Source: Megasphaera sp.
GTDB lineage: Bacteria > Bacillota > Negativicutes > Veillonellales > Megasphaeraceae
Length of the DNA: 38,903 bases
Assembly: GCA_022649055.1 (NCBI GenBank)
Contig: JALCNL010000011.1
Span: forward strand, 1 to 38,903
Direction of reading: 5' to 3'
Positions 1 to 20,507 of this stretch are shown piece by piece. The position numbers and the translations under genes are program-made. Position 1 is the stretch's first letter. Every line of letters begins with the position of its first letter. The notes beneath the pieces were generated by a model. The model did not search any database, had not been told where the DNA came from, and saw only the letters and a list, made by a program, of their open reading frames with translations.

Positions 1-308
<308 letters not shown>

Positions 309-17651: not shown

Positions 17652-18107
17652 CTACAATGTTTCCAAAAGTTTATGCAAGAGGTTGCGAAGCTCTTGTATT
17701 TCATCCTGCGAAAGTTTGACACAAGTACCCATTTTTCCTGGAATATCTCTCGCCTCCTGGCGCAAATCGCTTCCAGTTTGTGTCAAGGTTACCATAACAT
17801 TTCGCTCATCCGCAGGGAGACGAGATCGCTTTAAATATCCTTTTGATTCTAACTTTTTAAGCAACGGCGTCAAGGTTCCCGAATCCAAATACAAGCAATC
17901 TCCCAATTCTTTAATATTGATTTCTCGTTTTTCCCATAAAACCATCATGGTAATATATTGTGTATATGTCAAGTCTAATTTTTTCAGATAGGGCCTATAG
18001 TGTTTAACAACTTCCTTAGATGCTGCATATAAAGGAAAACAAAGTTGATTGCAAAGTTTCAATTGCTCATATGTTTGTAAAGTTTGTTGTTCTTCATGCT
18101 GTGTCAC
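17652..18107 (-). CDS. ohrR: OhrR-like MarR-family peroxide-sensing repressor
   Basis: A 151-aa MarR regulator with the OhrR pattern: the N-terminal sensing cysteine in LCNQLCFPLYAASKE, YTQYITMMVLWE, and the wing region LYLDSGTLTPLLKKLESKG with DERNV. In the family the cysteine is oxidised by organic hydroperoxides and the dimer leaves DNA. Here there are two nearby cysteines, the second being in the OhrR position. The GTG at 18107 has GAAGG 8 nt upstream, lying across the thioredoxin stop. A TTG at 18122 overlapping that stop is an alternative that adds five residues. It is the last gene of the reductase-thioredoxin-ohrR operon. The usual target ohr is not in the window. Confidence 0.85.
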   Translation of the reverse strand: MTQHEEQQTLQTYEQLKLCNQLCFPLYAASKEVVKHYRPYLKKLDLTYTQYITMMVLWEKREINIKELGDCLYLDSGTLTPLLKKLESKGYLKRSRLPADERNVMVTLTQTGSDLRQEARDIPGKMGTCVKLSQDEIQELRNLLHKLLETL

Positions 18108-18118
18108 ATGCGTTGCCT

Positions 18119-18436
18119 TCAATCCAATTTTTCTTTGATAAATTGTAGAAGTTGTTCTTTAGGAGCAAATCCAACTTGCTTTCCAACGGATTTCCCTTCT
18201 TTAAAAACAAACAACGCTGGTACACTTTGAATTTCTAATTGTGCTGCTAAGGCAGGTGCTTCATCTACATCCACATTGAAAAAGCTTACGTTTCCTTTCA
18301 TATCTTCGGCAACTTCTTCTAACACAGGAGCCAGCCTTTTACAATGTCCACACCAAGTCGCTGAAAAATCAACTACCGCCGCTTTGCTATTAAGTACTTC
18401 ATTAAATTCATTTTGAGAAATTTTTTTAATCATCAT
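18119..18436 (-). CDS. trxA: Thioredoxin
   Basis: A 105-aa thioredoxin. The active site is VDFSATWCGHCKRLAP, with Cys29 and Cys32. The residue between is His31 (CGHC) instead of the common proline (CGPC), which is expected to raise the redox potential, as in PDI-type sites. Conserved cis-proline is in QSVPALFVF. It is a cytosolic disulfide reductase. ATGATG at 18436 with AGGAGGT. The reductase gene is immediately upstream and very likely its partner. Confidence 0.95.
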   Translation of the reverse strand: MMIKKISQNEFNEVLNSKAAVVDFSATWCGHCKRLAPVLEEVAEDMKGNVSFFNVDVDEAPALAAQLEIQSVPALFVFKEGKSVGKQVGFAPKEQLLQFIKEKLD

Positions 18437-18458: not shown

Positions 18459-19325
18459 CTACTTGTGCCGATTTCGATCTACATAAGATACAGCCGAAAG
18501 AGCAGCCACATTCCCCTCACCAGCTGCTTTACTATATTGATAAGGGCGTCCCGTAATATCGCCGCATGCAAAACAGCCTTTCATAACTGTCTCCATTTGA
18601 CGATTTACAGCAACATAACCGCTCTCCGTTGTTAATCCTGGAACCAATTGATCAGGTGCGACACTTTCACGTAAAATAAATACTCCATCGACCTCATACA
18701 CAGCATCCTCAGTTTGAAGCTGAGAAACTTTAGATGTACCAGCAATACTCACAGGTATTTCATGAACAACTGTAACGGAAGAGGATACATGGATATCCCC
18801 CTGATACAAGGGGATATAATATACTTTAGCCGCTATTTCAGCCATAAAATCTACTTCACTTTCTTCAGCCGCACTGTCTGCAATAATTGCAACAACCTTA
18901 CCTTTGTATAATGGAGCATCACACGTAGCACAATAACTTACTCCCCGCCCCAAAAACAATTTTTCTCCTGCAAAAAAGTGCGTTACTGTCGTACCGGCAG
19001 CCAATATAATGCTCGTCGTTTCATACATAGCACCCGCTGCTGTTTGTATTTCAAAATATTCTCCCATATTGTATATGACTGTCGCCTTATCTTCTGTAAC
19101 AGCAATATTCATTATGCTCAGCTGCTGTTGAAAAACCTTCACCATATCAACACCGCTGTAATTAGGAAGGCCTAAGTAATTTTGAACAATATGTGCTTTT
19201 TCCACCTTTTCACTTAAATTTTTTCTTCCTAAAAGCAGTATTTTTTTATTGCGTATCTTAGCAGTAAGTGCCGCCGAAAGTCCGGCAGGACCGGTTCCAA
19301 TAATACCTATATCATAACGTCCCAT
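18459..19325 (-). CDS. Thioredoxin reductase-like flavoprotein, probably ferredoxin-dependent
   Basis: A 288-aa flavoprotein of low-molecular-weight thioredoxin-reductase fold. The FAD motif GTGPAG is at 10-15, the redox pair CATC at 132-135, and the second FAD motif CGDITGRPYQYSKAAGEG at 254-271. The central domain, which normally binds NADPH with GGGxSA and HRRxxxRA, instead reads VAIIADSAAEES (145-156) and YYIPLYQGD. Both NADPH motifs are missing, and the protein is about 20 residues shorter than usual. This is the known pattern of clostridial ferredoxin-dependent flavin thioredoxin reductases (FFTR). ATG at 19325, ribosome site AAGGAGG. First gene of the operon. Confidence 0.85.
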   Translation of the reverse strand: MGRYDIGIIGTGPAGLSAALTAKIRNKKILLLGRKNLSEKVEKAHIVQNYLGLPNYSGVDMVKVFQQQLSIMNIAVTEDKATVIYNMGEYFEIQTAAGAMYETTSIILAAGTTVTHFFAGEKLFLGRGVSYCATCDAPLYKGKVVAIIADSAAEESEVDFMAEIAAKVYYIPLYQGDIHVSSSVTVVHEIPVSIAGTSKVSQLQTEDAVYEVDGVFILRESVAPDQLVPGLTTESGYVAVNRQMETVMKGCFACGDITGRPYQYSKAAGEGNVAALSAVSYVDRNRHK

Positions 19326-19377
19326 ATATCATCCTCCTTTTCTTAAGAATGACATCATTAAAAACTAATGTAAAATT

Positions 19378-19434
19378 AAATTGTGTGCAACTTAATTTCA
19401 TAATCATTGTACACAATTTATCTTCTTTTGTCAA
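19378..19434 (-). promoter_or_regulatory. Promoter and dyad operator of the reductase-trxA-ohrR operon
   Basis: On the minus strand TTGACA (19434-19429), a 17-nt spacer and TACAAT (19411-19406) form a near-consensus promoter. A 13-bp inverted repeat with one mismatch, AAATTGTGTGCAA (19378-19390) and TTGTACACAATTT (19407-19419), overlaps the -10 box and the start of transcription. The inner palindrome ATTGT-GT-ACAAT resembles OhrR boxes (TACAATT-AAATTGTA type). Autoregulation by OhrR is inferred. Confidence 0.7.
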
Positions 19435-19440
19435 CAGGAT

Positions 19441-19487
19441 ACACCTCCCAATGTCACAAAAATATATAGCATTAGGAGGTGTAATTA
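19441..19487. repeat. Inverted repeat with ribosome-site-like arm
   Basis: ACACCTCCCAATG (19441-19453) and CATTAGGAGGTGT (19470-19482) form a stem with one mismatch and a 16-nt AT-rich loop. It lies between the end of the carbamoyltransferase gene and the -35 box of the reductase promoter. It has no U-tract. It could be a weak terminator or an upstream regulatory element. Confidence 0.4.
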
Positions 19488-19516: not shown

Positions 19517-20458
19517 TTACCAATCAAGTCTTCCCGTAATTAAATATACAAGAAGTCCTTTTTCCGCATGTCTGCGGTTTTCTGCTTCATCAAGAATGGT
19601 GTCCAAATGCATATCTATAATTTCCTGAGAAATTTCATATCCCGGATGCATCGGCATATCGTGCATGACCATGGCAGAACTACCTTCCATTAATTCTTTA
19701 TTAATTTGATAAGGTTCCATCAAATGGACAATCATATTTTTCTTTTCCGTATAGGCAGGATTTGTAAAAAATTCCATATCCACCCATGTATCTGTATATA
19801 CCGCATCCATATCTACCATAACCTGTTTTAATTTACTTTTATTGATATCAACCGGAAGTTCATGATAATGACCCGTCCTTTTTAAAGCTGCATAAAAATC
19901 ATCGTCTACATCCATAGCTTGGCTAAATGGGGTTAATCCATACATATCTCCTCCCATTTTCACAACAATTTCGCAAAGAGAATTATAGCTATTATTTTTA
20001 GCCCCGATGTAGAGAACTTTCACATCAAAATGACCTGTTTTTTCATAAAGAGTCAGCATATCCGCCAATGCCTGCGTCGGATGAAAAGTATTATCGCAGC
20101 CATTAATAACAGGTACTGTAGAATAGCGCATAAAACAACGTGTCATTGCCGCCTTTTTAAAACGACCCATAATGCAGTCTACATTGCGGCCTACATATTT
20201 AATTTCACTCATAAGATCTCCAATTGTAAAATTGCTGTCTTTCCACAATTGATTATACGCTTTGCCACCCAATTCCTCCATACCGATTACAAAAGATAGA
20301 TATGTACGATTTGATGTCTTTTCAAATAATGTATATAATTTTTTTCCATCAAGTATATGTGCATAAGCATCCTGATTTTTCTTGATTTTCTCAGCTAGCA
20401 ATAAAATTCCCTTAATTTCATCTACCGTGTAATCTGCAAAGCTATTCAAGTGTTTCAT
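19517..20458 (-). CDS. Ornithine/aspartate carbamoyltransferase-family protein, unknown substrate
   Basis: A 313-aa protein of transcarbamylase length. The carbamoyl-phosphate loop FEKTSNRTYLSF (45-56) matches the family STRT type with Asn50. NGCDNTFHPTQALADML (120-134) and IGAKNNSYNSL (151-161) are also conserved. Substrate motifs differ from ornithine carbamoyltransferase: the SMG loop is DTWVDMEF (223-230), and HCLP is HDMP (266-269), so the ornithine-binding serine and the catalytic cysteine are lost. It likely carbamoylates a different amine or amino acid, or is a transferase of unknown role. ATG at 20458 has GGAGGG 4 nt upstream. A start four codons earlier is less likely. No arginine genes are adjacent. 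Confidence 0.85.
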   Translation of the reverse strand: MKHLNSFADYTVDEIKGILLLAEKIKKNQDAYAHILDGKKLYTLFEKTSNRTYLSFVIGMEELGGKAYNQLWKDSNFTIGDLMSEIKYVGRNVDCIMGRFKKAAMTRCFMRYSTVPVINGCDNTFHPTQALADMLTLYEKTGHFDVKVLYIGAKNNSYNSLCEIVVKMGGDMYGLTPFSQAMDVDDDFYAALKRTGHYHELPVDINKSKLKQVMVDMDAVYTDTWVDMEFFTNPAYTEKKNMIVHLMEPYQINKELMEGSSAMVMHDMPMHPGYEISQEIIDMHLDTILDEAENRRHAEKGLLVYLITGRLDW

Positions 20459-20507
20459 AGTTCCCTCCATATATTAAATACATACATCAAATGAAAATCA
20501 CTCTTGT

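Follow-up and report, generated by a model that had tools for sequence, protein, structure and literature searches.

The thioredoxin reductase-type gene at 18459-19325 of the window, i.e., the whole 38,903-nucleotide stretch of Megasphaera DNA that was analyzed, raises the question of where an enzyme with FAD and disulfide motifs, and with the NADPH motifs replaced, obtains its electrons. Judged from its sequence, the product is, with a probability of about 0.85, a clostridial-type ferredoxin-dependent flavin thioredoxin reductase (FFTR) that would receive electrons from ferredoxin, the donor being assigned by family membership; the ferredoxin dependence of the family has been described (PMC12796991, PMC10880999). 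The host, with a genome of 2.1 Mb that is 87% complete, is a relative of Megasphaera paucivorans, a strictly anaerobic beer spoiler and the only named relative found. M. paucivorans (L017) keeps the three-gene block of FFTR, thioredoxin and OhrR-type sensor with 90, 98 and 93% identity, respectively, and this conservation, together with a 299-bit match to a crystallized FFTR, argues that the observation is not due to chance.

Table 1 Features of the FFTR operon in the window
Feature	Position	Strand	Description
FFTR-type thioredoxin reductase	18459..19325	-	288 aa, ATG start; assigned by sequence match, aligned motifs, tree position and modeled fold
Thioredoxin	18119..18436	-	105 aa, active site WCGHC; begins 22 nt after FFTR
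OhrR-type MarR-family peroxide sensor	17652..18122	-	156 aa, TTG start; overlaps trx by 4 nt
Sigma-70-type promoter TTGACA-17-TACAAT	19406..19434	-	11/12; kept in M. paucivorans
ATTGTGTACAAT, putative OhrR operator; overlaps the -10 box	19406..19417	-	sole occurrence in the window
Imperfect palindrome AATTAAGTTGCACACAATTTAATT, possible second operator	19374..19397	-	kept in M. paucivorans

The FFTR reading frame is complete, and AGGAGG precedes its ATG. The FAD motifs and the CATC redox pair, described as intact in the preliminary description, are borne out: GTGPAG starts at residue 10, CFACGD stands directly ahead of ITGRPYQ (GD at 255-256), and CATC occupies residues 132-135. Ahead of CATC, GRG at residue 126 represents the thioredoxin-binding GR/KG motif; where the cyanobacterial motif has FF, the window enzyme has LY, as in Clostridium acetobutylicum. 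An alignment of 82 thioredoxin reductase-type proteins likewise upholds the claim that the NADPH motifs GGGxSA and HRRxxxRA are replaced, with IIADSAAE at position 147 where NADPH enzymes have GxGxxA, and YIPLYQGD at position 170, accompanied by a deletion of about nine residues, in place of the HRRxxxRA of E. coli TrxB. Loss of both motifs is common to every FFTR row of the alignment, while both are kept in NADPH rows such as those of E. coli TrxB and of L102-L108, the canonical enzymes of the Megasphaera family.

Sequence, tree and predicted fold agree with the proposed FFTR pattern, and the window enzyme is a further member of this known family. The top three PDB matches are C. acetobutylicum FFTR entries with 299, 298 and 295 bits, and the best match outside these is 4zn0, a Methanosarcina enzyme, with 118 bits. 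The C. acetobutylicum FFTR (6gna, 6gnb, 6gnc, 6gnd) aligns end to end and with few gaps at 47-49% identity, and shares with the window enzyme the loss of the NADPH motifs, the CATC pair, and the fold and domain arrangement of the window model. In the ML tree, the window FFTR belongs to a nine-row subclade that includes both structural references, with a support of 100/99. The AlphaFold2 model (pLDDT 89) superimposes with TM values of 0.88 on 6gnc and 0.85 on 6gna, and C. acetobutylicum FFTRs hold ranks 1-6 in the fold comparison. TM values to most NADPH enzymes are about 0.5-0.6, although part of this gap reflects domain orientation, and the input alignment for the model contained FFTRs only. 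The FFTR of Gloeobacter violaceus (5j60, 6xtf), for which the ferredoxin partner is known, has also lost the NADPH site and gives a TM of 0.76; however, identity is only about 25%, and the sequence match is weaker than that of some NADPH enzymes. The window FFTR ends in VSYVDRNRHK and contains no tryptophan, and the cyanobacterial-type C-terminal tryptophan tail that stacks on FAD is thus absent.

A thioredoxin reductase that uses NADPH or NADH through a diverged nucleotide site would have the same overall fold and FAD motifs, and the NADPH-TrxR model TIGR01292 does match the window FFTR from end to end, with 156 bits; this score is, however, below half of the 343-bit cut-off, both nucleotide motifs are lost, and a deletion has shortened the binding loop by about nine residues. 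Grouping with NADPH-TrxR, an outcome that the preliminary description had named as fatal to its claim, was examined: the tree unites all 59 FFTR rows in a single clade (100/99) and separates them from all 22 rows of NADPH/AhpF type, and the AU test rejects a topology in which the Megasphaera pair is constrained to group with NADPH enzymes (p-AU 0.016). An NADPH-TrxR assignment is rejected on these grounds, and a cryptic NAD(P)H site is highly improbable. A related possibility is a flavoenzyme of the same fold that passes its electrons elsewhere, or that draws them from flavodoxin or a thiol instead of ferredoxin, in the manner of DDOR, which is devoid of an NADPH site and of the GR/KG thioredoxin-binding motif and binds two flavins (PMC9025218). 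The common absence of the NADPH site and the assignment of the donor by family are compatible with such a reading, but the window enzyme carries GRG ahead of CATC, clusters with FFTRs, one of which has been crystallized with thioredoxin, and is encoded next to a thioredoxin gene. The DDOR assignment is rejected since GRG is present and the enzyme clusters with FFTRs, and a different donor or acceptor is improbable, if somewhat less so than a cryptic nucleotide site. Motif alignment and tree also led us to reject an AhpF-domain assignment. A 296-aa protein in another genome (L034 in G005) was rejected as an additional FFTR because it keeps GGGEYA and falls outside the FFTR clade; this TrxR-like protein has no HRRxxxR, and forms a long branch outside both the FFTR and the NADPH clades.

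Returning to the FFTR and its supply of electrons, pyruvate:ferredoxin oxidoreductase (PFOR), the source suggested in the preliminary description, is plausible given that the window genome encodes a 56-aa ferredoxin of clostridial type (G000:C1:50016) as well as two full PFOR genes. At the left end of the window (1-278, minus strand), the contig end truncates a PFOR-like gene after its first 89 residues; the fragment may belong to a third PFOR or supply the start that is missing from the PFOR on contig 32. The accompanying claim that the thiol redox state depends on ferredoxin and not on NADPH goes too far for the cell as a whole, because a 543-aa AhpF homolog with GGGFAAVEE and VRK adjoins AhpC in the window genome (L003:1483-3114). 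This homolog is the one additional thioredoxin reductase-type protein of note in that genome. In G001, the other member of the genus, the AhpF homolog (L135:4779-6409) is split into frames of 346 and 205 aa, by a frameshift or a sequencing error. A stand-alone NADPH TrxR was not found in either Megasphaera genome searched, the window genome being 87% complete, and is present in several members of a neighboring genus of the same family. Six further genomes of the family (G004, G009, G010, G011, G014 and G015) have no protein that scores above about 80 bits against TIGR01292.

The reported operon with a CGHC thioredoxin and an OhrR-like sensor holds up: the three genes share a strand and a single TTGACA-17-TACAAT promoter, FFTR and trx being 22 nt apart and trx and ohrR overlapping by 4 nt. 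The sensor is rightly labeled OhrR, since its best structures are the OhrR proteins of Bacillus subtilis and Xanthomonas campestris (1z91/2pfb) and the sensor cysteine, Cys28, is conserved in NQLCF. Additional cysteines are found at 24, 76 and 134, and the score of 176.5 bits against the family model NF052638 falls short of the 200-bit cut-off. In contrast to known OhrR/OspR sensors, the gene is linked to FFTR and thioredoxin, and no Ohr/OsmC gene as its target was found in its own genome or in G001. The window promoter is overlapped by a AATTGTGTACAAT site, a putative operator similar to the OhrR box TACAATTNAATTGTA (PMC6034001). The motif AATTGTGTACAATT, close to the same box, occurs upstream with 0-1 mismatch only in Megasphaera and L161 and is weak in L066; it was matched in 0/300 mononucleotide shuffles for each of the Megasphaera and L161 promoters, a figure that is descriptive and no independent test because these sites themselves served to define the motif. 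Most other OhrR-linked promoters carry no significant operator site, and the motif is clear in two lineages only. The palindrome AATTAAGTTGCACACAATTTAATT was rejected as operator evidence on its own, as it is not significant by shuffling.

Based on this arrangement, reduced 2[4Fe-4S] ferredoxin, with PFOR as its main source of electrons, would deliver electrons one at a time to the FAD of the FFTR, the disulfide domain would swing so that CATC is reduced, and the electron pair would pass to the thioredoxin encoded by the adjacent gene. The OhrR-type sensor at the end of the operon probably represses it, and organic peroxide would oxidize the sensor cysteine and release the DNA, so that peroxide stress would raise ferredoxin-driven thiol-reducing power. 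The resulting peroxide-inducible chain would run from pyruvate through PFOR and ferredoxin to FFTR, thioredoxin and thiol peroxidases. The operon of clostridial relatives adds a GPx-type thiol peroxidase; there is none in the Megasphaera operon, and electrons would probably flow to other thiol peroxidases. Control of the operon by OhrR, with peroxide as the signal, is what we consider rather probable, and a role for peroxide is supported by the presence of GPx in most clostridial versions and by the precedent of OspR, an OhrR homolog that controls gpx in Pseudomonas aeruginosa (PMC4999210). The CGHC site of the thioredoxin, where relatives have CGPC, the failure to find Ohr or an operon GPx, and the restriction of a clear operator motif to two lineages weigh against this reading.

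The association with OhrR extends beyond Megasphaera. In a 50-row tree, the OhrR-linked FFTRs fall into a single 15-row branch (94/98), 13 members of which are located beside an OhrR-type sensor, the only members with none nearby being L067 and L068; the OhrR label requires 2 changes on this tree vs 11.5 in shuffles. The OhrR-linked sample was picked by similarity to a single locus, L066, which biases the linkage frequency upward, and the frequencies are therefore no population estimates. Gene order varies within the branch: L066 has FFTR-Trx-OhrR, as in Megasphaera, and L161 has OhrR-FFTR-Trx, while GPx lies within the operon in most OhrR-linked members, as FFTR-Trx-GPx-OhrR (L069), GPx-FFTR-Trx-OhrR (L138, L139), OhrR-GPx-FFTR-Trx (L145, L146, L149, L154, L160) or OhrR-GPx-FFTR (L156). 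The upstream sequence was readable for 11 OhrR-linked operons, each of which has a TTGACA-type promoter. In the sister branch, most FFTR genes are preceded by trx and have no OhrR neighbor, and different regulators may act on the two branches. Several Trx-FFTR operons without OhrR (L147, L148, L151, L153, L158, L159 and L162) have GGGTAT or GGGTAA elements upstream, accompanied in L148, L151 and L158 by a properly spaced GTTT box; these elements resemble sigma-B promoters as reported for trxA1B1 of Clostridioides difficile.

FFTRs are frequent in the class Negativicutes (100 of 250 genomes), where probable FFTRs, as non-NTR enzymes, had already been noted (PMC10880999), and rare in the Megasphaera family, with 2 of 17 genomes searched. 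The sequences closest to the Megasphaera FFTR come from outside the class, namely L066 (54%), L067 and L068 (51%), and L069 and L070 (48%). The tree places the Megasphaera FFTR with these, inside a clostridial clade (100/99) and away from the clade of its own class (100/99), which suggests that it was gained horizontally from a clostridial lineage; when it is joined to the class clade, the AU test is borderline (p 0.0503), and such a gain is likely but unproved. Plasmid carriage was rejected, as there were three distant matches only.

These data bear on two further alternatives. The ohrR gene could be a mere neighbor with another target, and FFTR-Trx a constitutive housekeeping pair that provides the only stand-alone thioredoxin reductase of the genus, as would suit the strong sigma-70 promoter and the failure to find a stand-alone NADPH TrxR in the genus. 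The overlap of ohrR with trx, the linkage that tracks one FFTR subclade with its neighbors kept while their order varies, and the OhrR-box-like site on the promoter argue in the opposite direction, and we regard mere proximity as the less probable state, though one of some weight. Vertical inheritance of the FFTR within Negativicutes, with no clostridial gain, is formally compatible with the AU value and consistent with the frequency of FFTRs in the class and with the ordinary base composition and GC of the FFTR block; however, it sits poorly with the tree position, the restricted occurrence in the family and the presence of the same gene block in a distant family (L066). Simple inheritance within the class is thus disfavored by AU test and tree, and is an unlikely history. 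With OhrR control and horizontal gain as the preferred readings, we give even odds to a broader proposal, namely that anaerobic Bacillota possess a distinct OhrR-controlled FFTR branch, in which OhrR/GPx/FFTR/Trx operons would support ferredoxin-powered reduction of organic peroxides without NAD(P)H or glutathione, and that some Megasphaera would have acquired this system horizontally and kept only reductase, thioredoxin and sensor. No account of the OhrR-linked branch came up in a literature search that covered few subscription journals.

Compared with the C. acetobutylicum FFTR, the window gene differs in its OhrR-linked operon, subclade, Negativicute host and WCGHC thioredoxin. A Trx-TrxR-GPx cluster is presumably present in C. 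acetobutylicum. TrxB1/TrxA1 and TrxB4 of C. difficile resemble the Megasphaera system as proposed FFTRs in an operon with thioredoxin and with a tie to oxidative stress, but trxA1B1 is driven by sigma B (PMC10880999), whereas the window operon includes an OhrR gene and lies behind a promoter of the sigma-70 type. The role of FFTRs in vivo was called unexplored before that work (PMC10880999), and OhrR with a single promoter offers a simple genetic handle on it. FFTRs couple the thiol redox state to ferredoxin, i.e., to a readout of pyruvate oxidation in fermenters, and the position of an FFTR sub-branch beside a peroxide-sensing repressor suggests that a strict anaerobe may meet peroxide stress through a pathway powered by ferredoxin. 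If such a branch, switched on by an organic-peroxide sensor, does feed a thiol peroxidase, strict anaerobes would have a peroxide defense for which low-potential electrons from fermentation pay directly.

The other plain thioredoxin of the window genome (L099) has WCEPC, and the FFTR-linked thioredoxin is thus the sole CGxC type seen in the genome. Its WCGHC site is that of protein disulfide isomerases, nearly all FFTR-linked thioredoxins of relatives having WCGPC, and the protein may have a less negative redox potential. Between the FFTR block and the upstream carbamoyltransferase-like gene, a hairpin was read by eye at 19440-19483. The carbamoyltransferase-like gene (19517-20470) is one 317-aa frame in the window and is split into 190 and 142 aa in M. 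paucivorans (L017:2858-3812), by a frameshift or a sequencing error.
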